Origin: Methylomonas methanica | Lineage (GTDB): Bacteria > Pseudomonadota > Gammaproteobacteria > Methylococcales > Methylomonadaceae | DNA length: 64,000 nucleotides | NCBI GenBank assembly: GCA_001644045.1 | Contig: LUUF01000052.1 | Location: 1-64,000, forward strand | Direction of reading: 5' to 3' | Made by a program: the position numbers and the translations under genes | In this document: positions 470 through 55,248 of the stretch, piece by piece | Layout: each line of letters starts with the position of its first letter | Position numbering within the stretch: the stretch's first letter is position 1 | Notes under the pieces: model-generated | The model's input: the letters and a program-made list of their open reading frames with translations, nothing else | The model's database searches: none | Told to the model about the DNA's origin: nothing

Positions 470-1570
470 ATGCAATCTTCTTTAATGCCTAAGTGTTTGT
501 TAGTAATTGCCAAATCGGCGCGGATGTTGGTGCAAATGTGCGTCGATTCCGGGTGTGAAGTGGTGGCTATCGATTGCTTTGCCGATAGCGATACGCGGCA
601 AATGGCGAAGCAGAGTTGCCAAGTCGCTTCGTTGGCATTGGATGATATTAGAACTGTGGTGGCTGGCGTTCGGAAAATGTACGGTTTAACCGAATTGATA
701 TACGGCAGTGGTTTGGAAATGTACCCGGAAACCTTGGTATATCTGGAAAAGGATTGGCGGATTATCGGGAATTCGGCCGCTACTTTTCAACGCGTCCAAG
801 ATAAACGTGATTTTTTTGCTCGGCTCGATTCGTTGTCAATTCGGCGCCCACTGCTGGTGTTCACAAAACCTGAGGATAGCGTTGACTGGTTGTTAAAGCC
901 ATGGCGAGGTGAGGGCGGCTTGGGAATAAGGCACCGTAACAGTGGCGATGTTGCTGACGGCTATTGGCAGCGCTATGTCGAAGGTCGTTCTCTGTCCGTG
1001 CTGTTTGCGGCGAGTCGCGATGAAGTTGAATTGATCGGTTTTAACGAGCAGTGGGTTGACGACTGTTATAGCGAGCACCCGTTTATGTTCGGTGGGATTG
1101 CCAGTCATGCCGAGGTTCCTGTAGCTATTCAAACTGAGATTGCCGATTGCTTAGGCAGGCTTGCAAAGGCTTATCAGTTGCGGGGTTTAAATAGCCTGGA
1201 TTTTATGTTGCAGGACGGCAATTACTATGTGTTGGAGATTAATGCGCGGATTTCCGCTAGTGCTCAGCTTTACGGCAAATCGCTGCTACTGAAGCATCTA
1301 CAAGCTTGTCGAAACCGCTTGGACGATAGTGTCGAATTATCGACGGAGCCGAGTGCGTATCAGATAGTTTATGCGCAAAAAAAAGTGACGATTTCCGATC
1401 GGCTGGAATGGCCTGCATGGGCAGTGGATAGGCCGAATCCCGGCGCAATTGTTGCCACAGGCGAGCCGATATGCAGTATTATTGCCACCGGAAAAAACTC
1501 GGGGCAGGTGCTGGATAATCTGCATCGCCAACAACGCATCCTTGCAAATCTTTTGGAAACAGGTCTTTAA
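470..1570 (+). CDS. ATP-grasp protein of the H4MPT/methylofuran cluster (OrfY type)
   Basis: This 366-residue protein has an ATP-grasp fold. A glycine-rich nucleotide loop, [12 protein letters not shown], lies near residue 142, and the metal-binding EINARISAS lies near residue 257. ATP-grasp enzymes join a carboxylate to an amine or thiol through an acyl-phosphate. It begins 5 nt before mch and probably shares its transcript. By gene order it matches the archaeal-like OrfY of methylotrophs such as Methylobacterium extorquens, which is needed for C1 transfer but whose exact substrate is not known to me. Two ATGs (470 and 485) could be the start and neither has a clear ribosome site. The family call is firm; the substrate is unknown. 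Confidence 0.85.
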
Positions 1571-1575
1571 AAATC

Positions 1576-2559
1576 ATGCAATACCAGGCAAGCGTCAATA
1601 AATTTTCCCAGCCCTTGGTTCAACAACTGCTGGATAACGCGGATAAATTACGGTTGGGTATCGAAAAGCTGGAAAACGGCTGTACTATTATCGATGCCGG
1701 TATCAAAGTGCCGGGCGGCCTGGAAGCTGGACGGATTATTACCGAAATCTGCATGGGCGGCTTGGGTACTGCAACGATCTCGCAAAGCCCGTACACGAGT
1801 AATTGGCCGCTGACGATTAACGTTCACGCCAGCAATCCGGTGTTGTCTTGTTTGGGTAGCCAATATGCGGGTTGGAGTTTGTCGCACGGCAAATATTACG
1901 CTTTGGGTTCCGGCCCCGCACGGGCGATGGCGACCAAGTTGAAAGACGGCGCAGTCGAACCTGTAGAAGAGCTTTATAAAGAACTTGAATACCGCGATAG
2001 CGCGGCGCAGACCGCATTGGTCATAGAAAACGACGCGCTGCCGCCGGTGGAAATCGTCGAGAAAGTCGCAGCGGCTTGTGGCGTATCACCGGCGAATTTG
2101 ACGATCATTGTCACGCCTACCAGCAGTTTGGCGGGTGGTGTACAAGTAGTCGGTCGGGTGTTGGAAGTAGCGATGCACAAAGCCCACGCGCTGCATTTTC
2201 CATTGGAAAACATTATCGACGGTTCCGGCAGTGCGCCGATTTGTCCTCCGCATCCCAATTTCGTTAAAGCGATGGGTCGGACTAACGACGCAATTTTATT
2301 CGCAGGCCAAGTGCATTTGTTTGTGAAAGGCAGCGACGAAGCGGCGGAAAAATTGGCCAAGGAATTGCCAAGTTCGACCTCAAAAGATTACGGCAAACCC
2401 TTCGCCGATATTTTCAAAGCCTACGAGTACGATTTTTTCAAAGTCGATGCGATGTTGTTTAGCCCGGCCAGCGTTATCGTCACCGCGGTCGAGTCCGGCA
2501 AAAGTTTCCGCGCCGGCAAATTGGATAATGCTTTGCTCGATCTTTCGTTCGGGGCTTAA
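1576..2559 (+). CDS. mch: Methenyltetrahydromethanopterin cyclohydrolase
   Basis: Mch hydrolyses N5,N10-methenyl-H4MPT to N5-formyl-H4MPT in the cytoplasm. It is the third step of H4MPT-linked formaldehyde oxidation after Fae and methylene-H4MPT dehydrogenase. The 327-residue length is normal for the family. The N-terminal half carries the conserved run containing ICMGGLGTA (near residue 57), and later segments include [11 protein letters not shown] and [14 protein letters not shown], all typical of Mch. It follows the ATP-grasp gene by 5 nt and precedes the RimK-like and CitG-like genes, the usual mch-orf5-orf7-fae order in methylotrophs. The enzyme is absent from bacteria lacking H4MPT, so it anchors the interpretation of the whole cluster. 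Confidence 0.97.
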
Positions 2560-2647
2560 TCCGCTCTAAATCTCTTCGACAGTTGACTGGCCTTGCCGCG
2601 CAAGGTCGGTTAGCTTGTATCGCTAACTTCATTCGTAACACATTCCC

Positions 2648-3550
2648 TTGCGCCGAATTGCAATTATCACCGACGATCCCGGCTGGCATGGCAAGCAGTT
2701 GTGCTTGGCTTTTGCCGAGCGCGGTTATGCAGCCGATTATGTCTCGCTGACTGCATGCAAATTGCAGTTAACAGTCGCCGATTTGCCCATTTTCATGCCG
2801 GGTTTTGAGCAAGAATTGCCGTCGGCGGTTTTCGTGCGCGGCGTACCTGGAGGTTCGCTGGAAGAGGTGGTGTTTTATCTGGATGTCTTGCACGGCTTAA
2901 AGATAATGGGGGTGCCGGTTTATAACGATGCCGGCGCAATTGAACGTAGCGTCGATAAGGGCATGACCAGTTTTTTATTGCAGCATGTCGGCTTGCCGAC
3001 TGCGTTGACCTGGGTGTTGCGGGATCGTGACGCAGCACTGGTGATTGCCGAGCAACAGTTACGCGAGGGCTATTATCTAATCAGCAAGCCTTTGTTCGGT
3101 TCGCAAGGCGAAGGCATTCGGCGCATCGAAAAATCCACCGATTTGTTATGGCTGACCAGTAGTCGCGGTATTTATTATTTGCAGCGCTTTGTGGAATGTG
3201 TGGGAGACGGTTATTCGGATGTGCGGGTGTTCGTGATCAACGGCAGAGCGGTTGCCGCTATGCGGCGGCGCGGTATTTCCTGGCTGAATAATGTGGCCAG
3301 AGGCGCGTCTTGCGAATGCATCGAACTGGAACCTGATTTAGCTGAGCTGGCGATTGCCGCTGTCAATGCGTTAAAAATGGATTACGCCGGTGTGGATGTC
3401 ATTCAGGATGAGGACGGCTGTTATCGCATCATCGAAGTAAACAGCGTGCCGGCCTGGAAAGGCTTGCAAAGTGTTTGCGATATCAACATCGCCGAATACC
3501 TGGTGGCCGATTTGCTCGATCGTTATTGCGTACAGGACAAAATATGCTGA
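2648..3550 (+). CDS. RimK-like ATP-grasp ligase (orf5 position)
   Basis: This 300-residue ATP-grasp protein resembles RimK, which adds glutamate to carboxyl groups. The ATP-binding region SKPLFGSQGEGIRR is near residue 145, and the magnesium site IIEVNSVPAWKGLQ is near residue 264. The start taken is TTG at 2648, because the conserved N-terminus RRIAIITDDPGWH begins there and no ATG lies nearby. It sits between mch and the CitG-like gene, in the position of orf5 of the M. extorquens cluster. Its product is probably a ligase adding an amino acid or similar group to the pterin or methylofuran cofactor, but the substrate is inference. Its end overlaps the next start by 7 nt, so the two are translationally coupled. 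Confidence 0.85.
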   Translation: MRRIAIITDDPGWHGKQLCLAFAERGYAADYVSLTACKLQLTVADLPIFMPGFEQELPSAVFVRGVPGGSLEEVVFYLDVLHGLKIMGVPVYNDAGAIERSVDKGMTSFLLQHVGLPTALTWVLRDRDAALVIAEQQLREGYYLISKPLFGSQGEGIRRIEKSTDLLWLTSSRGIYYLQRFVECVGDGYSDVRVFVINGRAVAAMRRRGISWLNNVARGASCECIELEPDLAELAIAAVNALKMDYAGVDVIQDEDGCYRIIEVNSVPAWKGLQSVCDINIAEYLVADLLDRYCVQDKIC

Positions 3551-4410
3551 GCAGGCAGCAATTGATAGACGTTTATCTGCAAGCTTGCGAAACCGAGTTA
3601 CAAGCCTTCAAGCCAGGTAATGTCAGCGTTTATAGCGCTGCCGACGATATGACGGTTGAGGATTTTCGTGTCAGCGCTTGGGTTAGTAGCGAGCCTATTA
3701 CCAATCCGCAATATAGCTTGGGTGAAAAAATTTATTACGCAGTCAAGGCTACCCGCGAGGCGGTGGCTTGCAATACCAATCTGGGTATTATTCTGCTCTG
3801 CGCGCCATTGTTGCAGGTGGCTGCTAGCCTGAATAATGGCGAAAACTTGCGCGATGGTTTACGACAACTGCTGGAAAATACTACCCGCGAGGATGCCGAT
3901 TGGGTTTTCAAGGCTGTAACCTTGGCCGCGCCGGCGGGCTTGGGTGAATCCGCGCAACACGACGTACAAAAACCGGCCGATGTAACGCTGACCGAGGCCA
4001 TGGCTTTTGCCGCTGGCAAGGACAGAATTGCGCTGCAATACGCAACAATTTTTAAAGACGTTTTTGATTTCGGTGTTTTACGATATAATCGTGCTTTCGT
4101 TTTGTCTGGCGATTGTGCTTGGGCTGCGTTAGCGGTTTTTGCCGCAATGTTGGCTCAATATCCCGATAGTCATATTGAGCGGAAGTATGGAGAGCGGTAT
4201 TCAGAGTGGATCAAGGCTGAGATGCACAAGCTCGATAGAGCGATGCAAACAGCTTGTGAGCCTAAAGAGCTTTTGCCAGTATTGTATGATCTGGACAAAG
4301 CTTTTAAGGCACAAAGGATCAATCCGGGTACAACAGCTGACATAACTGTAGCGACAGTACTGGTGGTGCTTCTGGAACAACTTATCGGTGAAGAAACCGG
4401 TGGGTTATAG
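3544..4410 (+). CDS. Triphosphoribosyl-dephospho-CoA synthase-like protein (orf7 position)
   Basis: This 288-residue protein resembles the CitG/MdcB family. Recognisable segments are ELQAFKPGNVSVYS near residue 20, NLGIILLCAPLL near residue 80, and a C-terminal NPGTTADITVATVLVVLLE. The family normally condenses dephospho-CoA with ATP for citrate or malonate decarboxylases, but no such enzyme is near. In methylotrophs a CitG-like gene between mch and fae is part of the H4MPT set and presumably transfers a ribosyl-phosphate-like group there. The ATG at 3544 lies in the ATGCTGA overlap with the previous stop. An upstream in-frame extension would run through the preceding gene and is rejected. 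Confidence 0.82.
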   Translation: MLSRQQLIDVYLQACETELQAFKPGNVSVYSAADDMTVEDFRVSAWVSSEPITNPQYSLGEKIYYAVKATREAVACNTNLGIILLCAPLLQVAASLNNGENLRDGLRQLLENTTREDADWVFKAVTLAAPAGLGESAQHDVQKPADVTLTEAMAFAAGKDRIALQYATIFKDVFDFGVLRYNRAFVLSGDCAWAALAVFAAMLAQYPDSHIERKYGERYSEWIKAEMHKLDRAMQTACEPKELLPVLYDLDKAFKAQRINPGTTADITVATVLVVLLEQLIGEETGGL

Positions 4411-4438
4411 AGGGAACTAAGCAGAAACTACAATCTTG

Positions 4439-4462
4439 AGACACTAACGTGTCTATTTTTTT
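4439..4462 (+). terminator. Hairpin with U-run between the CitG-like gene and fae
   Basis: A 6-bp stem (AGACAC/GTGTCT) with a 4-nt loop lies at 4439-4454, followed by ATTTTTTT. It should end transcripts from the mch operon or act as an attenuator in a fae leader. Only 33 nt separate the last T from the fae ATG. Confidence 0.7.
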
Positions 4463-4495
4463 GGTTCAATCTTATCTTTAGGGGATAAATTTAAA

Positions 4496-5011
4496 ATGGC
4501 AAAAATCAATAACTTGCGTGTTGGCGAATCTTTGGTTGGTGAAGGCAACGAAATTGCTCACATCGATTTGATCATCGGCCCACGCGGCTCAGCAGCTGAA
4601 ACTGCTTTCGCAAATGCTTTGACAAACAACAAAGACGGTTTTTCTACTCTGTTGGCTGTTGTTGCTCCTAACCTGTTGGTTAAACCTGCAACCATCCTGT
4701 TCAACAAAGTAACCATCAAAGGCGCAAAACAAGCTGTTCAAATGTTTGGACCAGCTCAACGCGCTGTTGCTATGGCTGTTGCTGATTCCGTTGAAGACGG
4801 CACTATCCCTGCTGACGAAGCTGACGATTTGTTCATTTCTGTTGGTGTTTTCATCCACTGGTTGGCTGAAGACGATGCAAAAATCGAAGAATTCAACTAC
4901 AAAGCTACCAAAGAAGCAATCGCTCGCGCTGTTGCCGGCACTCCAACTGCTAAAGAAGTAGTTGCTGCTAAATCTGGTGCAAAACACCCATTTGCTGCTA
5001 ACAACGTTTAA
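4496..5011 (+). CDS. fae: Formaldehyde-activating enzyme
   Basis: Fae condenses formaldehyde with tetrahydromethanopterin to give methylene-H4MPT. It is usually one of the most abundant proteins in methylotrophs. The 171-residue length is typical. The active-site histidine lies in [13 protein letters not shown] (His22 here), and the [14 protein letters not shown] and [13 protein letters not shown] segments are well conserved. A good ribosome site, AGGGGA, precedes the ATG. Codon use is strongly biased (GCT for Ala, GTT for Val, CTG and TTG for Leu), as expected for a very highly expressed gene. Hairpins lie on both sides, at 4439 and 5037, which suggests an independently transcribed, abundant monocistronic message. 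Confidence 0.98.
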
Positions 5012-5036
5012 GTTTTAGCGTCAAAGGCTGTCGAAG

Positions 5037-5064
5037 ATACCCCGGCTTGCCGGGGTATTTTTTT
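5037..5064 (+). terminator. Rho-independent terminator of fae
   Basis: A strong GC-rich hairpin, ATACCCCGGC-TTGC-CGGGGTAT-like, is followed by seven T residues. It lies 25 nt after the fae stop codon and just before the end of the convergent HisA-like gene. Confidence 0.93.
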
Positions 5065-5066
5065 GC

Positions 5067-5750
5067 CTAAAATTTTTGTAAGGTCTTGGTATCGAGGCTG
5101 CCGTTATGCAGTGCCGAGGCTAATAACACGCCTGCAACGCCAATGGCTTTCAATTGAGTCAGGTCATTGATATCGCGAACACCTCCGGCTGCGACAAAGC
5201 GTTTATCGAGATGATCCTGGCAAAGCTTGCTCAGTTTCTCAAAGTCCGGACCCTTATTGCTACCAACCAAATCCAAGGTCATCACCACAACGGTGTCCGG
5301 CCAGAGTTCAGGACTTTCCTGCCAGCCCGGATGACCCAAAGCCTGGTTATGTTTAAAATCCAGCGATAGGATGAGATCGGTCTTTTGTAAAGATACTGGC
5401 AGTCGTTGCGATTCGGTACCGATGACCGGTTTGCAGTTACCGGGGCGAGTAGCTTTAGATACGACTTTATAGCTGCTACCGTTATCCACCCAAAATTCCC
5501 GGTTTGGATATTGGCTAAGCAAGTCGTCGATGGCCTCGTCGTGATTGCCGTTGCCGTCAATAGCGTCAAGGTCTGCAATGTAAAATGTCTGAAATGGATA
5601 CAGCTTTAAAAAACGGGTCACGACATCGGTTATCTCGCTACTATCGCATAGTGACGACCTGTAATGTACGGGTCGATAACAATTGCGGTCGCCGCCGGCG
5701 GCATGCACCACTTGGCCGCCTTTTAAATCAATGACTGGAATAATCTGCAT
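5067..5750 (-). CDS. HisA/HisF-related TIM-barrel protein of the C1 cluster
   Basis: This 227-residue protein has the (beta/alpha)8 signature of HisA/HisF. It starts IIPVIDLKGGQVVHA, has FYIADLDAIDG near residue 55, and ends with RFVAAGGVRDINDL and a VLLASALH segment that would bind phosphate. It is not a histidine enzyme by context: no other his genes are near, and the gene is embedded in the H4MPT/methylofuran cluster. Archaeal-type relatives (COG1411) accompany these clusters in methylotrophs, with no assigned reaction that I know of. It is the only gene of the cluster on the minus strand. Its ATG lies 20 nt from the divergent TTG start of the next gene. Confidence 0.82.
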   Translation of the reverse strand: MQIIPVIDLKGGQVVHAAGGDRNCYRPVHYRSSLCDSSEITDVVTRFLKLYPFQTFYIADLDAIDGNGNHDEAIDDLLSQYPNREFWVDNGSSYKVVSKATRPGNCKPVIGTESQRLPVSLQKTDLILSLDFKHNQALGHPGWQESPELWPDTVVVMTLDLVGSNKGPDFEKLSKLCQDHLDKRFVAAGGVRDINDLTQLKAIGVAGVLLASALHNGSLDTKTLQKF

Positions 5751-5770
5751 AGGCCAAGCGAGTTTTAGAA

Positions 5771-6760
5771 TTGAGAATTCTGGTATTTGAATATATCACC
5801 GGCGGCGGTTTGGTCGGGCAGGCATTGCCTGCTTCGCTGGCGGCGGAAGGCGGCCTGATGTTACAGGCTTTGCTTACTGAACTGAAGTGTCTGCAAGATA
5901 TTCAGCTCTGTGTACCGCTGGACCAACGTTGCGCGAGACCGATTATGCTGCAGGAAGTGGAAATTGTAACGGTAAGCGCCGATTGCGATATCTTTGCGCT
6001 GTTGTGGGATTTACTGGTAGAAGTCGACTTGTTTTGGCCAATCGCGCCGGAAAGCGATGGCATTTTGCAACGCTTGGCCGAGCTGGCTATTGCCGCGAAT
6101 GTCGAGATTTTGCTATCCAACCCAGCGACGCTGGCAATCTGTGCCGATAAATTTGCAACCTACCAAGAGCTGGCAAAACAGGCGATTCCGGTTGTGGAAA
6201 CTCGCTTGCTCGGCCAGGGGGCGGATGGCCTGGACGATAATGTCGTAGTGAAAATCGCCGACGGTGTCGGTTGCATGAACAGTTTTGTCATTGACGCCGA
6301 ACAGTTGGCAACCGCTGTTGCCGGATTGAGCGATCCGCAACGTTATGTTTTACAACCTTATACTAGCGGTCAGGCCGCCAGTTTGTCCTGCTTGTTCAAG
6401 AGCGGCCGCGCCTGGCTGATTTGTTACAACCATCAGCAAATCGTTTTAGAAAATGGCCGATTTAGCTTGCAAGGCTGTTTAGTCAATATGCCAACCGATA
6501 AACTGGATTTTTATCGGAACCTGATAAAAGCAATCGCCGAAGCGCTGCCCGGCTTGTGGGGCTATGTCGGTATCGACATCATCGAGAACGCCGAACATGG
6601 GCCTCTGGTGTTGGAAATTAATCCGCGTTTGACCAGTTCATATGTTGGTATCCAGCAAGCGACCGGCATTAATGTGGCCGAACAGGTACTAAGCTTACGA
6701 CACGCCGAACCGGATTTGCAGATAAGTCGAAATGAAACGGTACAGATCAGTATCAATTAA
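5771..6760 (+). CDS. ATP-grasp ligase, MfnD-like (tyramine-glutamate ligase type)
   Basis: This 329-residue ATP-grasp protein begins RILVFEYITGGGL, a start shared with archaeal MfnD-type ligases. MfnD joins tyramine and glutamate by a gamma-glutamyl bond in methanofuran synthesis. The nucleotide-binding region includes VVKIADGVGC near residue 158, and the metal site is VLEINPRLTSSYVG near residue 279. The TTG at 5771 is chosen because the conserved N-terminus starts there. It is followed 8 nt later by the MfnF-like gene, consistent with one methylofuran operon. The ATP-grasp call is sure; the precise substrate is inference from neighbours. Confidence 0.8.
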   Translation: MRILVFEYITGGGLVGQALPASLAAEGGLMLQALLTELKCLQDIQLCVPLDQRCARPIMLQEVEIVTVSADCDIFALLWDLLVEVDLFWPIAPESDGILQRLAELAIAANVEILLSNPATLAICADKFATYQELAKQAIPVVETRLLGQGADGLDDNVVVKIADGVGCMNSFVIDAEQLATAVAGLSDPQRYVLQPYTSGQAASLSCLFKSGRAWLICYNHQQIVLENGRFSLQGCLVNMPTDKLDFYRNLIKAIAEALPGLWGYVGIDIIENAEHGPLVLEINPRLTSSYVGIQQATGINVAEQVLSLRHAEPDLQISRNETVQISIN

Positions 6761-6768
6761 AAGACACC

Positions 6769-7815
6769 ATGAATAAACAAATTGCAGGTTGGGATATTGG
6801 CGGCGCGCATGTCAAGTTGGCACTGTTGGGCGAATCCGGCCAAATCCAGGTAGTTGCTCAGCAAGCTTGTCCGCTGTGGAAGGGTGTGGATTACCTACGT
6901 CGCACGCTGGCCGATTTGGCTGGTCAGTTCGATTTGCAAGATTGCCGTAATGCTGTGACGATGACCGGCGAACTGGTGGATTGCTTCACCAGCCGCGAGC
7001 AAGGCGTCAATGCTATCGTCCAAGCTGTTTGTGAACAATTCAATGCCGAGCAGGTGTCGGTATTCGCCGGCTTGCGCGGCTTTTTGCCGGCAGCGCAAAT
7101 TCAGCCGGCCGATTGCATGGACATTGCCTCCGCTAACTGGTTGGCCAGTCTGTTATGGGTGGCAAAACGCCAGCCGAACGCCTTATTTGTGGATATAGGC
7201 AGCACCACAAGCGATATTCTGCTTGCCGAAAATCACCAGCTTAAAGTGCAAGGGTTCACCGACTATCAACGCCTGGTGTCCGGCGAATTGGTGTATACCG
7301 GCATTGTCCGCACGGCGGTAATGGCGATAGCACAAGAAGCGGAATTCAACGGCCAAGCAATGGGCCTGATGGCCGAGTATTTCGCGACGATGGCCGATGT
7401 GTATCGTTTGACCGGCGACTTGAACGAAGCGCACGATCAGAGCGACACCGCCGATGGTGCGGAAAAGTCGGTTTCGGCCAGCGCCCGCCGCTTGTCGCGG
7501 CTGACCGGTTACGAGTTCAGCGAGAGCGATCACGCGCTTTGGCTGGCATTTGCAGAACAATTAAAAGCCAAGCAAATACAAAAAATTAGTCTGGCTTGTG
7601 CCAGACAATTGCAAAGAGCGGAAACCCGCTCGGCGATTAAATTAGTCGGCGCCGGCGTCGGCCGGTTCTTGGCGCGGGACATCGCCCGCGATTTGGGAGT
7701 TGATTATCTGGACTTTAAGGATTTACTGCCATCAGTCAATAATATCCAGGCTATCGATGCCGCCGACTGCGCGCCGGCCGCCGCCGTGGCTTATCTTGCC
7801 GGCGGGTTTGGTTAA
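6769..7815 (+). CDS. H4MPT-linked C1-transfer protein, MfnF-like (hydantoinase/oxoprolinase fold)
   Basis: This 348-residue protein has the ASKHA phosphate-binding loops AGWDIGGAHVKLA (residue 6) and VDIGSTTSDI (residue 143). Near the end, IKLVGAGVGRFLAR provides the adenosine-like site. In archaea the homologous MfnF couples gamma-glutamyltyramine to the aminomethylfuran phosphate to form the core ether of methanofuran. Bacterial relatives are known as H4MPT-linked C1-transfer pathway proteins. It lies between the MfnD-like ligase and pabB on the same strand, 8 nt after the ligase gene. Function in methylofuran synthesis is inferred from family and context. Confidence 0.85.
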   Translation: MNKQIAGWDIGGAHVKLALLGESGQIQVVAQQACPLWKGVDYLRRTLADLAGQFDLQDCRNAVTMTGELVDCFTSREQGVNAIVQAVCEQFNAEQVSVFAGLRGFLPAAQIQPADCMDIASANWLASLLWVAKRQPNALFVDIGSTTSDILLAENHQLKVQGFTDYQRLVSGELVYTGIVRTAVMAIAQEAEFNGQAMGLMAEYFATMADVYRLTGDLNEAHDQSDTADGAEKSVSASARRLSRLTGYEFSESDHALWLAFAEQLKAKQIQKISLACARQLQRAETRSAIKLVGAGVGRFLARDIARDLGVDYLDFKDLLPSVNNIQAIDAADCAPAAAVAYLAGGFG

Positions 7816-7894
7816 AGCCGGCCGCTGGGTTAAAATCGGCATATTGCAAATCATGTCCTTGCGGCACATTCCGGCCGCTTAACAGCACCTCTTA

Positions 7895-9268
7895 ATGCCT
7901 TTAGCAAACCCCATCAAACAATCGCTGCCTTATTTTCAAGACAGTGCATCATTATTTGCCCCGCTGGCGCGGCAGCCTTGGGCGGTGTTTCTGGACAGTG
8001 CCCGGCCCTATAGCCAGCAGGACAGGTTCGATATTATCGCCTATGCGCCCGTCGCAACCTTGCAAACGCGCGGCAATATCACCCGTATCGAACGCGACGG
8101 CGTGGTGACCGAAAGCTCGGCGGATCCTTTTGAATTATTGAAACAGCAGTTAGCCGCGCCATTAGCCAGCGTCGACGGCTTGCCGTTTAACGGTGGTGCA
8201 ATCGGTTATTTTGCTTACGATCTTGCTCGACGCATAGAGCGCCTCCCGGCTATGGCTGGCGACGCGGAGCAACTAGCGGAAATGGCGGTGGGTATTTACC
8301 GCTGGGCGGTGATTGTCGATCATCAACATCGGCAAAGCTGGCTGGTCAGTGTCGACTTGCCGGAAAGCGAGCGGCAAAGGCTAATAGCTGAATTCAGCGC
8401 GATTACGACGTCGGCGAAAACTGCGGAATTTAAAGTATTGCAAGCGCCGCGAGCCAATATGGACAGAGCGGAATACGCCACGGCTTTTCAGCGTATCAAA
8501 CACTATCTGAAAGAGGGCGACTGCTATCAGATCAATCTGACTCAGCGCTTCGAAAGTCCTTGCCAAGGCGAGCCATGGCAAGCCTATCAAGTACTGCGGC
8601 AGATCAATGCCGCACCTTTCAGTGCCTATCTGAATTTCCCGGATGTGCAGGTTTTAAGTTCTTCGCCGGAGCGCTTTTTAAAAGTAACCGACGGCGCGGT
8701 GGAAACCAAACCCATCAAAGGTACCCGGCCGCGCAGGAGTAATTGGGAAGAAGATCAAGCGCAGATCGAAGACTTGGTGTCCAGCACCAAGGACCGGGCC
8801 GAGAATGTGATGATCGTCGATCTGTTACGCAACGATTTGGGCAAAAGCTGCAAAAAGGGTTCGGTGTGGGTACCCAGCTTGTTCTCCGTGGAAAGTTATG
8901 CCACCGTACATCATTTGGTCAGTACCGTGACCGGCCAGCTAGCCGCCGGCCAACATGCCATCGATTTATTGCGCAGCTGTTTTCCGGGCGGCTCGATTAC
9001 CGGTGCGCCCAAGATTCGAGCAATGGAAATCATCGAGGAGTTGGAACCGCATCGGCGCGGCATCTATTGCGGCGCGATAGGCTATATCGGTTTTGATGGC
9101 AATATGGACACCAATATCGCCATCCGTACCTTGGTGCACAATCACGGCACGATACGTTTTTGGGCGGGCGGCGGCATCGTCAACGATTCGGTGCTGGACG
9201 AGGAATACCAGGAATGCTTCGATAAGGCCGCTGCCTTATTGCAGTTGCTCAAAGAATTCAGCGTATGA
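7895..9268 (+). CDS. pabB: Aminodeoxychorismate synthase component I
   Basis: PabB converts chorismate and ammonia to 4-amino-4-deoxychorismate, the precursor of p-aminobenzoate. The 457-residue chorismate-binding protein shows the PabB hallmark KPIKGTRPRR near residue 272 with its catalytic lysine, then STKDRAENVMIVDLLRND and the C-terminal PGGSITGAPKIRAMEII. Anthranilate synthases lack the PIKGT lysine. The glutaminase partner PabA is not in the window. Placement inside the C1-cofactor cluster makes sense because p-aminobenzoate is the arylamine used by beta-RFAP synthase for methanopterin as well as for folate. The end overlaps the MfnE-like gene by 4 nt (ATGA). Confidence 0.94.
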   Translation: MPLANPIKQSLPYFQDSASLFAPLARQPWAVFLDSARPYSQQDRFDIIAYAPVATLQTRGNITRIERDGVVTESSADPFELLKQQLAAPLASVDGLPFNGGAIGYFAYDLARRIERLPAMAGDAEQLAEMAVGIYRWAVIVDHQHRQSWLVSVDLPESERQRLIAEFSAITTSAKTAEFKVLQAPRANMDRAEYATAFQRIKHYLKEGDCYQINLTQRFESPCQGEPWQAYQVLRQINAAPFSAYLNFPDVQVLSSSPERFLKVTDGAVETKPIKGTRPRRSNWEEDQAQIEDLVSSTKDRAENVMIVDLLRNDLGKSCKKGSVWVPSLFSVESYATVHHLVSTVTGQLAAGQHAIDLLRSCFPGGSITGAPKIRAMEIIEELEPHRRGIYCGAIGYIGFDGNMDTNIAIRTLVHNHGTIRFWAGGGIVNDSVLDEEYQECFDKAAALLQLLKEFSV

Positions 9269-9831
9269 CTTGCGTGATCAAGCTGGGCGGCAGCTTGCTG
9301 GAAACAGCCGCCTTGCCCGCTTGCCTGGCGGCAATTGCAAATTGCGCCGGCCCCGTTGTTATTGTGCCCGGCGGCGGACCGTTTGCCGAACAGGTGCGCA
9401 TCGCGCAAAATCAGTGGCATTTTGATGATGTTGCCGCGCACCGGATGGCAATTCTGGCGATGCAGCAAATGGCCTTATTGATGCACGGCATGATGCCAGA
9501 ATTTGCTATCGTCGCTGACGCGGCGAGTTTAGGCGCCGCATCGCAAGTAAAGCCTGTTCTGATTTGGTCTCCGCAAGTCGAGCAATTGGATGAAGCCAAT
9601 ATAGCCGCCGGCTGGGATATTACTTCCGATAGTCTGGCGGCCTGGTTGGCTGGTTTTGTCGCAGCCGATGAGCTAATTATCGTTAAATCGGCACACGTTC
9701 CGGAGCAAGTAAGTTTGCAGGATTTACAACGACAAGGCGTCCTCGATGCCGCTTTCCAGCGTTTCGCCGCCCAGGCACACTACAAAATCACCGTGATTAA
9801 TAAAGACCGTTTCCTGTCCCGCCATGATTAA
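9265..9831 (+). CDS. Amino-acid-kinase-family protein, MfnE-like
   Basis: The protein has 188 residues. The start CVIKLGGSLLE and the loop VVIVPGGGPFAEQVR (near residue 31) are the two glycine-rich motifs of the aspartate/glutamate/uridylate kinase fold. In archaea MfnE of this fold phosphorylates aminomethylfuran phosphate to the diphosphate used by MfnF. The presence of an MfnF-like enzyme two genes upstream supports the same role here. The protein is short for an amino-acid kinase, as are other members of this subgroup. It overlaps pabB by 4 nt and the following DUF2959 gene by 8 nt, so it is translationally coupled on both sides. Confidence 0.8.
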   Translation: MTCVIKLGGSLLETAALPACLAAIANCAGPVVIVPGGGPFAEQVRIAQNQWHFDDVAAHRMAILAMQQMALLMHGMMPEFAIVADAASLGAASQVKPVLIWSPQVEQLDEANIAAGWDITSDSLAAWLAGFVAADELIIVKSAHVPEQVSLQDLQRQGVLDAAFQRFAAQAHYKITVINKDRFLSRHD

Positions 9832-48609: not shown

Positions 48610-49998
48610 TTAACCCTGCAAAGCCTTCAATAAGCCCTGCAACTTGTCGTTGGCATCACCGAACAGCATGCGGGTATTTTCATGCACGAACAGTGGATTG
48701 CCGACGCCGGCGTAACCGGAGGCCATCGAGCGCTTCAGCACGATGGTGGTGGCGCCTTTCCAACATTCAAGCACCGGCATGCCGGCTATCGGGCTGTTGG
48801 GGTCGTCTAAAGCCGACGGGTTGACGATGTCGTTGGCGCCGATGACGATGGAGACATCGACATGTGGGAAGTCTTCGTTGATTTCGTCCATTTCAAACAC
48901 GATGTCATACGGGACTTTTGCTTCCGCCAACAATACGTTCATGTGCCCAGGCATCCGCCCGGCGACCGGATGGATTGCAAAGCGGACTTTTTTGCCGTGG
49001 CTGGTCAGGTATTTGGTGATTTCGTTGACTGTGTGCTGCGCTTGCGCCACCGCCATGCCGTAGCCGGGGATAATCACGATCTCTTTGGCGTCGCGCAGTA
49101 ATTGCGCGGTTTCTTCGACTTCGATTGGTTGCACGTCGCCGACCACTTCCGCCGCTTCGCCACCCGCACTACCGAAACCGCCGGCTATCACACTAAGAAA
49201 GTGCCGATTCATCGCCCGGCACATGATGTAACTCAGAATCGCACCGCTGGAGCCGACCAAGGCGCCGGTCACGATCAGCAAATCATTGCTGAGCATGAAG
49301 CCGGTGGCCGCAGCGGCCCAACCCGAATAGCTGTTCAGCATCGATACCACCACCGGCATATCGGCGCCTCCGATGGCCATCACCATATGCACGCCAAAAG
49401 CCAAGGCAATAACTGTCATGATCAACAGCGGAATCGAACCGCCGCCGGTTTCGGCGCCGTCCAAAAAGCTGCCGCCCAAGATGAAAGTCACAACGAACAT
49501 GGCCAGATTCAGCCAATGCCGTGCCGGCAGTAACATCGGTTTGCCGCTAATCCGTCCGCACAGCTTGCCGAAAGCAATCACCGAGCCGGAAAAGGTCACC
49601 GCGCCGATGAAAATGCCTATGTAGATTTCCAATTCGTGGATGGTTTTTTCCGCGCCTTCCAGGCTGGTGGAATGATCCATGAAGTTGGCGTAACCCACCA
49701 GCACGGCCGCCATACCGACCAAACTGTGCATTAAAGCCACCAGCTCCGGCATTTGCGTCATTTCCACCTTGGCGGCGGCTTTGGTGCCGATAAAACCGCC
49801 AATCAACAGCGCGATGGTCAGCATCGTATAGGCGGTGACGCTGCCGCCGAATACCGTGGCGACAATCGCAATCGCCATGCCGGTCATACCGAAGTAGTTG
49901 CCGCGCCGCGACGTGTCTTGCTTGCTCAGGCCGCTAAGGCTGAGAATGAATAGAATCGAGGCTGCAATGTACGCCATTGTAACTAGACCGTTTGACAT
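48610..49998 (-). CDS. pntB: NAD(P) transhydrogenase subunit beta
   Basis: PntB and PntA form the proton-pumping transhydrogenase that makes NADPH from NADH and NADP+. The 462-residue protein has about eight N-terminal membrane helices and a C-terminal NADP-binding domain with [19 protein letters not shown] near 315 and [20 protein letters not shown] near 351. It lies 10 nt after the pntA stop on the same strand. NADPH supply is important for C1 assimilation; the link is inference. Confidence 0.97.
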
Positions 49999-50008
49999 GT
50001 AGCTCTCC

Positions 50009-51565
50009 TTATTTTCTGAACATTTCGAGCATGCGGCGCGTCACCAGGAAGCCGCCGGCAATATTGATGGACGCGATCAGGATGGCCAGCGCGGACAAGA
50101 TGCTGACTATGGCACTGGGCGCGGAGACTTGCACCAACGCGCCAATCACGATAATGCCGCTGATAGCGTTGGTGACGCTCATCAAGGGCGTGTGCAGCGA
50201 CGGCGAGACATTCCAAATCACCTGATAGCCGACGAAGCAAGCCAGCACGAATACGGTGAAGTGCGACAAAAACGAAGTGGGCGCGACCGCGCCTACGCCG
50301 AATAGTGCCAAACCTGCCAACAAGATCGGCAGCCATTGCTTGACCGGTTCGGGCAGCAGCGATTTGGTTTCGGTGGCTGCGGCAGTTTCGGTTGCCGCGG
50401 CTTGCTTGGGCGCGGCTGATAATTTAGGCGGTGGTGGCGGCCAGGTAATATTGCCTTCCTTGATCACGGTAGCGCCGCGAATCACTTCGTCCTCCATATT
50501 GATGACGGTGTTGCCGTCCTTGCCGGGGGTGAGATCGGTCAGCAGATGCCGCAGGTTGGTGGCGTAAAGCTGGCTGGATTGATTGGCCAAGCGGCTGGGT
50601 AAATTGGTGTAACCGATGATGGTCACATCGTGTTTCACCACCACCTGATTTTTCTCGGTCAAGGCGCAGTTGCCGCCTTGTTCGGCGGCCAAATCCACGA
50701 TCACGCTGCCGGGTTTCATCGAAGCTACCATCTCGGCGGTAATCAGCTCGGGCGCCGGTTTGCCGGGGATCAAGGCGGTGGTGACGATGATGTCTACTTC
50801 CTTGGCTTGTTGAGCAAACAAGGCCATCTCGGCTTCGATAAATTCCTTGGACATGGTCTTGGCGTAGCCGCCGCTACCGGAACCGTCTTCCTGAAAGTCC
50901 AGCATCAGAAACTCAGCGTCCATACTTTCGATTTGTTCTTTCACTTCCGGCCGGGTATCGAAAGCGCGGACGATGGCGCCCATGCCTTTCGCGGCGCCGA
51001 TGGCCGCCAGACCGGCGACGCCGGCGCCGATCACTAACACCTTGGCCGGCGGGATCTTGCCGGCGGCAGTGATCTGGCCGGTAAAGAAGCGGCCGAAATG
51101 CTGGGCGGCTTCCACAATCGCTCGATAGCCGGCGATATTGGCCATGGAACTCAGAGCGTCCATTTTTTGCGCGCGGGACATGCGCGGCACGCTGTCCATC
51201 GCCAGCACCGTGACTTTCTTCGCTGCCAGCTTTTGCATCAGCGCTTCGTTTTGCGCCGGCCAGATAAAGCTGATCAATTGTTGGCCTTCGCGCAGCAAAT
51301 CGGCTTCGTCGATAGCCAGTTGCGGATGAAACTCGGGTGCCCGGACTTTCATGACGATGTCGCTGCTTTGCCATAATTCCTGCGCCGAGGCGACGACTTG
51401 CACGCCAGCCGCGCGGTAAGCGTCATCGGAAATATTGGCATTGTCGCCGGCACCGCTTTCCACCAAGACTTCAAAGCCGAGTTTAATGATTTTTTCCGCG
51501 GCGTCTGGCGTGGTAGCGACGCGCTTTTCGCCGTCGTGAACTTCTTTGGGAACACCGATTTTCAT
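50009..51565 (-). CDS. pntA: NAD(P) transhydrogenase subunit alpha
   Basis: The 518-residue subunit carries the NAD-binding domain at the N-terminus ([20 protein letters not shown], then [20 protein letters not shown] near 174) and four membrane helices at the C-terminus. The two parts are fused as in Escherichia coli, not split into PntAA and PntAB. An Ala/Thr-rich linker at about 380-400 joins them. It precedes pntB by 10 nt on the same strand. Confidence 0.97.
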
Positions 51566-51723: not shown

Positions 51724-52650
51724 ATGAAAATATTGGTGGTCGATGATAGCAAAGTGATCAGGCAGCTGGTTGCGGAATGCCTAAAGGAAATGGGACATGC
51801 GGTGGCTTATGCCGGAAACGGTTCGGAAGCTCTGCAATATGTCGCCGACCATGATGTGGACTTGATTCTGATGGATGTGGAAATGCCGTTTCTAAGCGGT
51901 TTCGAAGCGACCAAGGCGATCCGCGAGTTGAAAAAGTCTGATTGGTTTCCAATCATTTTTCTTACCATGCACGACGACGATCAATCGTTCGTCAATGGCA
52001 TTTTGGCTGGTGGCGACGCCTATCTGCCCAAGCCGCTGAATCCAACCCGTTTGCGCCTGACGGTAATCGCGATGGAGAGGATTTACGTGATGCGGCAAAA
52101 ACTGCAAAAGACCCAACGGGAATTACAGGCCGCCAATCTGGAATTGGAGCGTTTGTCATTGCGCGATCAATTGACCGGCTTGGGCAATCGCCGCCATTTC
52201 GATAGCAATCTAACCATGCAATTTGCGCTGTCCCGCCGTAACAAAGCGCCTTTGTCGCTGATCATCTGCGATATCGATTATTTTAAAAACTACAACGATT
52301 CATTGGGTCACCCGCAAGGTGATGCTTGTTTGATTGAAGTGGCCAAAGTGATTACGGAGCAGTTGGAACGCAGCAGCGATCTAATTTGTCGCTATGGCGG
52401 CGAGGAATTTGTAGCAATCTTGCCCGATACGCCTTTACACGATGCGCGCACGTTGGCCGAAAATATTCGCCGGCAAGTTTTCGAAACCGATATTAGTTAT
52501 GGAGAAGCTGAAGCTCGGCGCGTGAGCCTGAGTTTGGGCGTGGCCACTTATGTTGGCCAGTATAAAACCGAACAAGAGATGGTCGAAGCGGCCGATGCCG
52601 CATTGTATAAGGCCAAGCAAAATGGCCGTAACCGGGTGGAAATAAATTAA
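51724..52650 (+). CDS. Response regulator with diguanylate cyclase domain
   Basis: The 308-residue protein has a receiver at about 1-120 (LILMDVEMPFLSGFE, phospho-Asp) and a GGDEF domain at about 145-305. The active site reads RYGGEEF, with an RSSD inhibitory site before it. It is divergent from pntA and precedes the nucleotidyltransferase gene by 3 nt. It resembles the other REC-GGDEF protein at 20829-21743 in design. No cognate histidine kinase is adjacent. Confidence 0.94.
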   Translation: MKILVVDDSKVIRQLVAECLKEMGHAVAYAGNGSEALQYVADHDVDLILMDVEMPFLSGFEATKAIRELKKSDWFPIIFLTMHDDDQSFVNGILAGGDAYLPKPLNPTRLRLTVIAMERIYVMRQKLQKTQRELQAANLELERLSLRDQLTGLGNRRHFDSNLTMQFALSRRNKAPLSLIICDIDYFKNYNDSLGHPQGDACLIEVAKVITEQLERSSDLICRYGGEEFVAILPDTPLHDARTLAENIRRQVFETDISYGEAEARRVSLSLGVATYVGQYKTEQEMVEAADAALYKAKQNGRNRVEIN

Positions 52651-52653
52651 AAC

Positions 52654-53580
52654 GTGTATCGAGCCAAGGACTTTATAGAAACCGCGGAAGGTCTGATCTT
52701 CGCGGTAGTGGCCGAAGGCCAGGAACAGGGGAAGGTGTTATGTTTTCTGCGCTACCTCTGTCTGGAGGGTGTCTGGCGCAAGGTCGATACCGAACTGGCT
52801 AATCGCCATCTTGACCAATATTACCCGCAGTATCTGCATTATTCGGCGCTGCTCGATGCGCATTTACATGCCGTGCCGGTTACTGCGATTGCTCGGCATT
52901 ACCAACCTAGACATGTCTTGCAACGTTTATTGGCTGACGCACCCGGCGACCCGGTGTTGGCCGATTTGCATAAACTGTGCGGCTTGTTGCGAGACAATGG
53001 CTTGGTGCTTACCCGATTCGGTGTTACCGGCTCGCTACTGGTGGGTATGCAAAAACACAGTTCCGATATTGATCTAGTATGCTACGAGCGCAGCGAGTTT
53101 CATCGCGCGCGCAATATCGTCCAAGCCTTGATCGCCGAAGATCGTTGTCAGGCGTTAAACGACGAGGATTGGTTGGAGGCTTATAAGCGGCGGGCCTGCG
53201 ATTTTGCCTTTGACGAATATGTCTGGCACGAGCTGCGCAAGTACAACAAGGCGATGATCAACGGGCGTAAATTCGATTTGTCGTTAACGGTTGCCGACCC
53301 GGAAGCACGGGAGCGAAGCCACCGTAAACTGGGCTTTATCAGTATCGACGCCGAAGTGTGCGAAGACCAATTCAGTTTCGATTATCCCGCTCGGTTTGGC
53401 ATCAAACACCCGCAAGTCGGTAGCGTGGTGTGTTTTACCGCTACTTATAACGGTCAGGCGCAAACCGGCGAACGGGTTCGCGTGGCCGGGCAGTTAGAAG
53501 TCGATCAAGACGGGGTCCAGCGCATAGTGGTTGGCTCCAACCGGGAAGCCATAGGCGAATTTATCAAGGTAATCCGGTGA
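52654..53580 (+). CDS. Archaeal-type nucleotidyltransferase-like protein
   Basis: The 308-residue protein starts with GTG at 52654. The nucleotidyltransferase core is FGVTGSLLVGMQKHSSDIDLVCY near residue 125 (the GS and DxD of the Pol-beta fold). The family is reminiscent of archaeal predicted nucleotidyltransferases (COG1665-like). A C-terminal beta domain follows (about 240-300, TGERVRVAGQLEVDQDG). It lies between a diguanylate cyclase gene and a HAD phosphatase, in a run ending with beta-RFAP synthase. Its role is unknown, but co-occurrence with mptG suggests work on the pterin cofactor. Confidence 0.72.
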   Translation: MYRAKDFIETAEGLIFAVVAEGQEQGKVLCFLRYLCLEGVWRKVDTELANRHLDQYYPQYLHYSALLDAHLHAVPVTAIARHYQPRHVLQRLLADAPGDPVLADLHKLCGLLRDNGLVLTRFGVTGSLLVGMQKHSSDIDLVCYERSEFHRARNIVQALIAEDRCQALNDEDWLEAYKRRACDFAFDEYVWHELRKYNKAMINGRKFDLSLTVADPEARERSHRKLGFISIDAEVCEDQFSFDYPARFGIKHPQVGSVVCFTATYNGQAQTGERVRVAGQLEVDQDGVQRIVVGSNREAIGEFIKVIR

Positions 53581-54254
53581 AAGAGCGTTGCTGGCGGGCG
53601 GTTATCTTCGATATGGACGGTCTTGTTTTGGATAGCGAACCTACCTACGTGCGGGCTTGGCAGGCGGCGATCGATGAGCTTGGTTTTACGATGCCGGCCC
53701 AATTTTGGACAAGCTTGTCGGGTTGCTCCGGAAAGACGGTTACTCAGCGTTTGCAGGAGCAATGCGGCGTTGACTTCGATCTGGAACGGTTTCAGCAGTT
53801 AAGTAGCGTTTACTGGCTAGCCCATGTTCAGCAGCACGGAATAGCGGTAAAGCCCGGTTTTTTTGTTTTACTGGATGTACTTGCCCAGTACGGTTTGCCG
53901 TTCTGTCTGGCAACTAATAGCCCGCTGGCGGCGGCGCGGCAGTGCCTGGCCTGGGCCGGATTGACGGATATTTTCCCCCGTATCGTTGCCGGCGATACGG
54001 TACGCGCCGCCAAACCCGCCCCGGATATTTTTTTACGCGCGTCAGCCGAACTGGCACAACCGGTTCAAGATTGTTTGGTGTTGGAAGATTCGCCGATCGG
54101 TATCCGCGCCGCGCTCGCCGCCGGAGCTTCTTGCGTTTTCGTGCCGTCTTTGCAACCCGCTGACGCATGGGCCGCCGAACACGCCGATTATCTACTGGAC
54201 GATCTGCAACAAGTGGCCGATTTTATCTCGGCCCGCCAACATCATCCGCTATAA
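53577..54254 (+). CDS. HAD-family phosphatase
   Basis: The 225-residue protein has the motifs VIFDMDGLVLDSEPTY near residue 10 (nucleophile Asp and acid Asp), CLATNSPLAAARQCLAWAG near 110 and VLEDSPIGIRAALAAGA near 165. The size and DMDG start are those of the beta-phosphoglucomutase/sugar-phosphatase subclass. The GTG start overlaps the nucleotidyltransferase stop by 4 nt, so the two are coupled. It is followed by beta-RFAP synthase. A phosphatase beside mptG could remove the ribose phosphate at an intermediate of methanopterin synthesis, which is inference. Confidence 0.82.
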   Translation: MKERCWRAVIFDMDGLVLDSEPTYVRAWQAAIDELGFTMPAQFWTSLSGCSGKTVTQRLQEQCGVDFDLERFQQLSSVYWLAHVQQHGIAVKPGFFVLLDVLAQYGLPFCLATNSPLAAARQCLAWAGLTDIFPRIVAGDTVRAAKPAPDIFLRASAELAQPVQDCLVLEDSPIGIRAALAAGASCVFVPSLQPADAWAAEHADYLLDDLQQVADFISARQHHPL

Positions 54255-54255
54255 T
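54250..54255 (+). promoter_or_regulatory. TATAAT -10 element before mptG
   Basis: A perfect TATAAT lies at the end of the HAD gene, 31 nt before the mptG GTG. No good TTGACA-like -35 is at the proper distance, so this may be an internal promoter or chance. Confidence 0.3.
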
Positions 54256-54285
54256 GCCCGCTCCTTACTAATCGATGGAATCCAG

Positions 54286-55248
54286 GTGGTGAAAGCGCGG
54301 TACCAAACAGTCACGGTTATAGCTCCGGCTCGCTTGCATATGGGCTTTATCGATTTAAGCGGGGCGTTGGGGCGGCATTTCGGTAGCATCGGTTTGGCTC
54401 TGAACGAAATCAATACCAGGCTCACCATAACTACAGGGGATAGCATGCAGGTCAGTGGCCCGTCCGCTGATCGCGCTCTGAAATGTACCCGGCAATTTTG
54501 TCAGTTGCTGGGCGTTTCCGATGCACTCAATATTACTATCGATAATGCCATCCCCGAACATATTGGGTTAGGATCGGGCACGCAAATGGCTTTGGCTGTC
54601 GGTGCCGCGTTGAATGCCTTTTACGGTTTGGGGCTGTCGGTGCGGGAAATAGCGCAACTCTCAGATCGCGGCGCGCGTTCCGGTATCGGCATCGGTATCT
54701 TTGAAAAAGGCGGCTTGGTGGTAGACGGCGGTCGCGGACCGGATACCAAGACCCCGCCGATGATTGCGCAGATGGCTGTGCCTGAAGACTGGCGATTTAT
54801 TTTGGTATTTGATCAACGCGGCCAAGGATTGCACGGCGAACAAGAAGTCAGCGCTTTCCAACAGTTGCCGCCGTTTCCACAAGCACAGGCCGAACGCTTG
54901 TGTTACTTGCTGCTGATGCAGGGTTTGCCGGCTCTGGCTGAACGCGATCTTGATAAATTCGGCGAAGTGATTACCTGGTTGCAACAGGCGGTGGGTGAGC
55001 ATTTCGCGCCGGTACAGGGCGGGGTGTTTACCAGTCCGGATGTCGCGGCAGCGATGGCTAGTCTGGCCGCGCAAGGCGCGGTGGCGATAGGGCAGACCTC
55101 GTGGGGGCCGACCGGATTTTGCGCGGTTGCCGATCCGCAACGCGCGGCGGAGTTACTGGCTCGGTTGGAAGCGCAATTTGCTGCATCGCCGTTGAGTTTT
55201 TTGGTTGCCAGTGCTCGAAATCAGACAGCGGAAATTATTGTCAATTAG
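54286..55248 (+). CDS. mptG: Beta-ribofuranosylaminobenzene 5'-phosphate synthase (beta-RFAP synthase)
   Basis: This enzyme joins p-aminobenzoate and phosphoribosyl pyrophosphate, with loss of CO2, to start methanopterin synthesis. The 320-residue GHMP-kinase-fold protein has ARLHMGFIDLSGALGRHFGS near residue 14, the glycine-rich IGLGSGTQMALAVGAALNAFYG near 88 and RSGIGIGIFEKGGLVVDGG near 126. The start is set at GTG 54286, since ATG-poor sequence precedes it and the conserved part begins a few residues on; GTG 54289 is possible. It is a defining H4MPT gene and links this locus to the cluster at 470-9831, which supplies aminobenzoate. Confidence 0.93.
   Translation: MVKARYQTVTVIAPARLHMGFIDLSGALGRHFGSIGLALNEINTRLTITTGDSMQVSGPSADRALKCTRQFCQLLGVSDALNITIDNAIPEHIGLGSGTQMALAVGAALNAFYGLGLSVREIAQLSDRGARSGIGIGIFEKGGLVVDGGRGPDTKTPPMIAQMAVPEDWRFILVFDQRGQGLHGEQEVSAFQQLPPFPQAQAERLCYLLLMQGLPALAERDLDKFGEVITWLQQAVGEHFAPVQGGVFTSPDVAAAMASLAAQGAVAIGQTSWGPTGFCAVADPQRAAELLARLEAQFAASPLSFLVASARNQTAEIIVN

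Follow-up and report, generated by a model that had tools for sequence, protein, structure and literature searches.

What are a nucleotidyltransferase gene and a phosphatase gene doing directly ahead of the gene for beta-ribofuranosylaminobenzene 5'-phosphate (beta-RFAP) synthase in a methanotroph? The question is raised by a stretch of 64,000 nucleotides from Methylomonas methanica (contig LUUF01000052.1 of assembly GCA_001644045.1, positions 1 to 64,000), which we call the window and in which these three genes, abbreviated here NT, HAD and mptG, follow one another on the same strand. A preliminary description of this DNA had proposed the first two as candidate missing enzymes of methanopterin synthesis. 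We find that NT and HAD are kept together and that in many Methylomonadaceae they stand at the head of the island of genes for tetrahydromethanopterin (H4MPT) and methylofuran. Their link to mptG is real and old and, as far as sampled, Methylococcales alone have the pair added to their H4MPT genes. It is best read as a lineage-specific accessory pair in the assembly of the H4MPT side chain, the chemistry of which we infer from gene order, co-occurrence, intact catalytic motifs and predicted folds, all of them established below. The trio is laid out as follows:

52654..53580, + strand: NT, from the GTG at 52654 to the TGA at 53580, 308 amino acids, a nucleotidyltransferase of the pol-beta superfamily
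53577..53580, + strand: GTGA, in which NT stops and HAD starts, read directly in the sequence
53577..54254, + strand: HAD, GTG to TAA, 225 amino acids, HAD superfamily (HAD-IA, sugar/alditol phosphatase type)
54286..55248, + strand: mptG, GTG to TAG, 320 amino acids, beta-RFAP synthase family, starting 31 nucleotides past the HAD stop

The coordinates of the open reading frames confirm the arrangement first described, with its three genes on one strand, its overlap and its short gap. The MptG of the window passes the subfamily model TIGR00144 (177.5 bits for a cut-off of 113.5), and its gene is the sole match to this model in the 5.0 Mb genome. Against the equivalog model NF040726 it reaches 189.7 bits for a cut-off of 328, though the model aligned nearly full length, and it is therefore assigned to the TIGR00144 family only.

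We will first consider how the trio is arranged in other genomes. NT loci were taken from genome contigs (the best 80 of 253 confirmed) and dereplicated at 85% NT identity, which left 60 loci (20 dropped), and 9 more were dropped for having less than 2.5 kb downstream, leaving 51. HAD begins within 200 nucleotides after NT in 48 of these 51 dereplicated loci, while mptG lies within 2.5 kb of NT in 38 and the order NT-HAD-mptG is likewise found in 38 of the 51. The series runs on into an ATP-grasp gene and mch in 19 of the 38 ordered loci, and the longer loci extend to RimK, CitG-like, fae and HisA-like genes; in two further loci NT-HAD is followed by mptG and the island at a distance of 2.5-10 kb. 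Record titles with the trio in order include Methylomonas, Methylobacter, Crenothrix, Methylomicrobium, Methyloglobulus and others. Because this order is kept across many genera, while the GGDEF gene that precedes NT in the window is near NT in only 9 of the 42 dereplicated loci having more than 4 kb upstream, the arrangement of the trio exceeds chance.

The pair also holds together where mptG has another neighbourhood. In families f2, f3, f4 and f6 (in this analysis the labels f2 to f8 designate families, g244 a genus, G and L numbers genomes and loci, and A1 to A3 alignments), mptG is followed by ATP-grasp and mch without NT in 14 of the 15 mptG loci (L053-L065 and L069; not L052). Of the 16 NT loci across f2-f6, 13 nevertheless have HAD on the strand of NT and no more than 3 kb from it; as for the remaining three, a HAD orthologue is found elsewhere in G046 and G057, and none was found in G038. 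In 7 of these 16 loci an H4MPT-type gene is at most 5 kb away from NT. Families f2, f4 and f5 each contribute one locus with an mtdB-like pair near NT, accompanied in f2 and f5 by a RibD-C/DHFR-like reductase; the mtdB-like label stands for 50-57% identity to annotated proteins, and the five scanned out of these six proteins had no NCBIfam match. A fae homologue is found near NT in four f6 loci, and the one tested passes TIGR03126. In the f5 locus L034, NT-HAD sits between the mtdB-like and reductase genes on one side and mptG-ATP-grasp on the other.

The presence and absence of the genes tell a similar story within the order. Among 61 near relatives, NT was found in 54 and mptG in 53, and all 7 NT-negative genomes are also without mptG; one genome (G050, 85% complete) has NT and no mptG. 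In an even draw of 251 Methylococcales genomes, with HAD called at E <=1e-35, NT was found in 222, mptG in 220 and HAD in 209. NT and mptG occur together in 216, NT only in 6, mptG only in 4 and neither in 25, so that NT is carried by 216 of the 220 mptG genomes against 6 of the 31 mptG-negative ones; HAD and mptG occur together in 204, with 16 mptG genomes lacking HAD and 5 HAD genomes lacking mptG, all these two-by-two counts being tallied by hand with the unlisted negatives (9, 11 and 22 genomes) derived by subtraction. The pattern reflects few independent events, 20 of the 25 genomes without NT and mptG belong to f7 and f8 (14 listed, 6 by subtraction), and incomplete Methylomonadaceae assemblies may drop linked genes together. 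Across 17 genomes, HAD orthologues score 174-322 bits and are found in 9 of the 10 NT-bearing ones, other HAD proteins reaching at most 93 bits; in seven mptG-negative f7/f8 genomes the best HAD protein reaches at most 65 bits. Genus g244 has NT in 12 of 12 genomes, mptG in 11 and HAD in 2, and among seven of its loci (L184-L190) four are without HAD beside NT, two have it and one is too short.

These counts use mptG as a marker of H4MPT, for which it is an imperfect proxy. Haloferax volcanii carries a TIGR00144 match, haloarchaea being said to be without H4MPT in the excerpted text of PMC8305020, and genomes G075 and G234 have divergent mptG copies without adjoining island genes. A second mptG-family gene was also seen in some methanotrophs (G008, G014, G016, G459, G545, G648 and others); the second copy of G014 (L070:4548-5528) has 25% identity to the MptG of the window and scores 171 bits against NF040726, below its cut-off. 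On a plasmid of Halobellus limi (L176), an archaeal mptG-family gene is accompanied by DUF447, a methylenetetrahydromethanopterin reductase homologue and methionine synthase genes.

Outside the order the picture is different. Among 398 Pseudomonadota genomes drawn, mptG was over the cut-off in 20, source genome included. NT is absent from all of the 19 others, in which a lax repeat search gave a single 24-residue match (E 0.64), and 17 of these 19 have a further H4MPT gene adjoining mptG. Neither NT nor HAD is listed in the H4MPT islands of Azospirillum, Paraburkholderia and Thiodictyon plasmids. Relatives of HAD were compared in 39 genomes (19 mptG-positive and 20 mptG-negative): the top three, with 164, 155 and 150 bits, are all in mptG-negative gammaproteobacteria, and the best relative in an mptG-positive genome of this sample reaches 131 bits. 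NT is thus rejected as a general bacterial H4MPT enzyme, and HAD as specific to the general bacterial H4MPT set. NT keeps closer to the pathway than HAD does: 16 of the order's 220 mptG genomes are without HAD, and the best outside relatives of HAD are in mptG-negative genomes. The proposal of missing methanopterin enzymes therefore stands for Methylococcales, by context and co-occurrence, but is not supported as a general one. One locus titled Methylophaga (L117) has the trio, but over 3.5 kb it shares 98.9% identity with the locus of a methanotroph symbiont of Bathymodiolus (L121), so that its label is likely wrong and it is probably a mislabelled bin.

In Methylobacter, Crenothrix and Methylomicrobium records, the island begins with NT-HAD, and in Methylobacter-type genomes the remaining island genes come straight after mptG. 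The loci nearest to the window (L072-L083) are not among the 19 that continue into the island and, given the arrangement of those other records, the window and its closest relatives seem to have NT-HAD-mptG-island in a split version. Most of the H4MPT/methylofuran island lies at 470-9831, apart from the trio, and NT begins about 43 kb further on. Its genes were found with annotated Azospirillum, Paraburkholderia and Thiodictyon island proteins as queries:

470..1570, + strand: ATP-grasp protein, 32-34% identity to annotated Azospirillum and Thiodictyon island proteins
1576..2559, + strand: mch, methenyl-H4MPT cyclohydrolase, TIGR03120 at 440.9 bits
2648..3550, + strand: RimK-type ligase, probably MyfB/Orf5 (by the excerpted text of PMC8141765)
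3475..4410, + strand: CitG-like protein (PF01874), true start uncertain
4496..5011, + strand: fae, formaldehyde-activating enzyme
5067..5750, - strand: HisA/HisF-like, probably Orf17 (by the same excerpt, PMC8141765, which places Orf17 in the methylofuran synthesis of Methylorubrum)
5771..6760, + strand: second ATP-grasp protein, MfnD-like, below cut-off
6769..7815, + strand: H4MPT-linked C1 pathway protein TIGR03123 / MfnF-like
7895..9268, + strand: pabB, aminodeoxychorismate synthase component I, for para-aminobenzoate (pABA), the MptG substrate
9265..9831, + strand: amino acid kinase family protein, MfnE-like, below cut-off

A CitG-family protein is found in 50 of the 61 near relatives and in four archaeal control genomes, the same as for mptG, plus E. 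coli. The one in the island we take to be Orf7-like.

We can now turn to the proteins themselves. HAD matches Pfam HAD_2 at 1.8e-24, and its motifs I-IV (DxD, T/S, K, ED) are intact, with D12, D14, T113, K146, E170 and D171 invariant in all 30 rows of A3, which holds the window HAD and 29 loci. The best match in both sequence and fold is the mannitol-1-phosphate phosphatase domain of MtlD (1.3e-23, template modelling score 0.88, 27% identity), and human pseudouridine-5'-phosphatase is also among the fold matches. HAD looks like an active sugar- or alditol-phosphate phosphatase. We rejected its identification as a beta-phosphoglucomutase (88.3 bits for a cut-off of 189.4 with TIGR01990, 126.2 for 153.35 with TIGR02009). 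A HAD pseudogene in G566 and G636 was also rejected, as the TGA falls outside the query residues aligned by tblastn (1-205).

NT is more divergent. The window protein, which has 86-93% identity to its four nearest named records (all Methylomonas), scores 15.9 bits against Pfam PF01909, under the gathering cut-off of 21, and matches no NCBIfam model; 20 of 21 aligned NT proteins, counting the window protein, reach PF01909 with E values no higher than 1 (best 1.1e-6). The features that define the pol-beta superfamily (GS motif, DxD and a third Asp) are conserved: none of G126-S127, D138, D140 and D208 varies among the 21 proteins of A1 (window NT and 20 relatives) or the 38 of A2 (window NT and 37 of the 80 loci). 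Its AlphaFold2 model has an N-terminal beta-rich part (~1-83), an NT domain (~95-213) that is TUT7-like by fold, and an OB-like C-terminal part (~221-308). The protein thus appears to combine an intact pol-beta active site with a predicted OB-like C-terminus. Solved structures gave no useful match by sequence, and the whole-protein fold search gave none at E <=0.001, its list being mainly LysRS and OB-type entries. The MdcG family PF10620 is matched weakly by 2 of the 21 NT proteins (best E 0.02). The preliminary description called NT archaeal-type, for which the candidate archaeal nucleotidyltransferase family would be COG1665; relatives with 22-28% identity are found on Streptomyces plasmids, and archaeal plasmids gave no NT match. 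NT was rejected as an anti-phage element, there being no PADLOC match and no relative on a viral contig.

Which function do these observations support? NT and HAD very probably belong to the H4MPT/methylofuran gene set of Methylococcales, and we consider it likely, with less assurance, that they serve H4MPT rather than methylofuran. When these two statements are taken together with some catalytic role for both proteins, the whole is favoured by a modest balance of probability.

Three other explanations have to be weighed. The one that survives best is that the pair performs no biosynthetic step: HAD would be a housekeeping sugar-phosphate or damage-control phosphatase, NT a nucleotidyltransferase of nucleic acids or proteins, and co-regulation with growth on methane would hold both close to the island. 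Three mptG-negative gammaproteobacteria with HAD relatives scoring 150-164 bits speak for it, as do the g244 genomes, most of them without HAD, the OB-like C-terminus and TUT7-like domain of the NT model, and the different context of the Streptomyces relatives. However, the presence and absence of NT track mptG over the 251 genomes, and NT stays with HAD also where mptG is elsewhere, as the 13 of 16 f2-f6 loci show, which leaves this explanation rather unlikely. It is less probable still that the pair serves methylofuran, by modifying its core or its polyglutamate chain. The island does carry both pathways, and its RimK (MyfB), HisA-like (Orf17) and MfnE/MfnF-like genes are methylofuran genes in the excerpted text of PMC8141765; but in Methylomonadaceae it is mptG that adjoins the pair (the 38 of 51 loci given above), and the methylofuran route in the excerpts of that source has no phosphatase or nucleotidyl-transfer step, the strings "phosphatase" and "nucleotidyl" being absent from its main text. 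Finally, a general role of NT and HAD as the missing methanopterin enzymes of bacteria and archaea is highly improbable, and already contradicted for the sampled bacteria outside Methylococcales by the 19 genomes without NT and the three named islands without either gene, in spite of the linkage to mptG in Methylomonadaceae and of the excerpted 2011 review by which 3 methanopterin proteins of Methanothermobacter are known and an estimated 7 are not (PMC3087415).

An accessory role in H4MPT side-chain assembly can be translated into a sequence of candidate steps. MptG would use pABA and phosphoribosyl pyrophosphate to give a C-ribofuranosyl 5'-phosphate, and the condensation of this product with the pterin, followed by reduction, would yield a 1-deoxyribitol 5-phosphate. 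In H4MPT assembly, the ribitol phosphate must go before the second ribose is attached. HAD would strip the 1-deoxyribitol 5-phosphate of its phosphate, thus freeing the hydroxyl that is to accept this second ribose. An alditol phosphate and a C-nucleoside 5'-phosphate are the substrates of the solved HAD relatives, and both resemble the H4MPT intermediates; by this analogy HAD may be the phosphatase of the side-chain intermediate, a plausible assignment that we hold at somewhat less than even chance. CitG makes its triphosphoribosyl product from ATP, and the CitG-like protein of the island may draw on ATP to supply the second ribose in the form of a 5-triphosphoribosyl group, by analogy with the action of CitG on dephospho-coenzyme A. 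NT would then act by pol-beta chemistry on the distal end of the side chain, joining a group to the 5-phosphoribosyl end with release of pyrophosphate; alternatively, it might activate a piece of the side chain with a nucleotide. That NT acts at the ribose-phosphate end is unlikely.

A bolder version can be formulated. Methylorubrum has a form of H4MPT without phosphate and hydroxyglutarate, according to the excerpted text of PMC8141765, and together with the CitG-like protein of the island and with an NT that accompanies mptG only in Methylococcales among the sampled genomes, this suggests that NT could cap the triphosphate end. Methylococcales would go beyond dephospho-H4MPT, at which Methylorubrum stops: the CitG-like protein would provide a 5-triphosphoribosyl end, HAD would open the ribitol hydroxyl, and NT, in the manner of MdcG or CitX, would release pyrophosphate and move the 5-phosphoribosyl end onto a hydroxyl of another molecule, which might be 2-hydroxyglutarate, the group found in archaeal methanopterin, or some different cap. 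We regard this as very doubtful. If true, the cofactor of these methanotrophs would be an unrecognised, phosphodiester-extended H4MPT, and the unassigned phosphodiester step of methanopterin would gain a mechanism from the pair.

The accessory role is of interest even in its simpler form. Methanopterin synthesis is poorly assigned in its later steps, and we have here two catalytically intact genes whose tie to mptG spans an entire methanotroph order. That NT is absent from the other sampled mptG genomes predicts that the cofactor, or the route to it, differs between Methylococcales and other methylotrophs. In the excerpted text of a Methylobacter draft genome paper, cofactor synthesis genes are reported as lacking (PMC7902576). 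Among the open-licence titles listed, none names the NT-HAD pair, which is no proof that it is unpublished, and we found nothing on COG1665, on triphosphoribosyl-dephospho-CoA synthase with methanopterin or on haloacid dehalogenase with methanopterin biosynthesis.

The surroundings of the trio in the window include one close neighbour on the same strand:

51724..52650, + strand: response regulator-GGDEF gene, ending 3 nucleotides ahead of NT

It is probably a bystander, and its rarity near NT in other loci led us to reject it as a member of the unit. Directly upstream of the NT region, PntA and PntB (pyridine nucleotide transhydrogenase) lie at 48610-51565 on the opposite strand, and PntA is near NT in 18 of the 42 representatives with more than 4 kb upstream. 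Promoter and terminator scans were at chance level, and in the window Rfam gave one tRNA over the gathering score and no other family.

The locus can finally be set against known systems. A Streptomyces plasmid protein with an NT domain (L153:7998-9014, NZ_CP108475.1) is of similar length, with 27% identity over most of the protein. Its gene, however, is flanked by a phosphotransferase on one side and two methyltransferases on the other, a histidine phosphatase is close by and no mptG is annotated in 17 kb, another use of the same NT family. The HAD domain of the bifunctional mannitol-1-phosphate dehydrogenase/phosphatase MtlD (7oct, 7ocu) is the best match of the window HAD, which is nonetheless a stand-alone protein without the dehydrogenase domain. 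Human pseudouridine-5'-phosphatase HDHD1A (3l5k, 9m7l) is of the same HAD type (29% identity; fold E 1.5e-14 for 3l5k) and acts on a C-nucleoside 5'-phosphate, but it is eukaryotic and its substrate is a different one. CitG/CitX and MdcB/MdcG are pairs of a triphosphoribosyl-dephospho-CoA synthase and a transferase. The likeness to them lies in the island CitG-family protein that co-occurs with mptG, in the pol-beta signature of NT and in its weak MdcG match; the NT locus differs in having no CoA or acyl-carrier context, and NT is at most a candidate MdcG member. A further comparison is with the "archaeal-like" H4MPT/methylofuran island of Azospirillum (L177), Paraburkholderia (L178) and Thiodictyon (L179), and of Methylorubrum in the excerpted text of PMC8141765, which shares the order mptG, ATP-grasp, mch, RimK, CitG-like, fae. 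These named islands have mtdB between mptG and ATP-grasp, whereas many Methylomonadaceae add NT-HAD upstream of mptG, and in the window the island is split from mptG.

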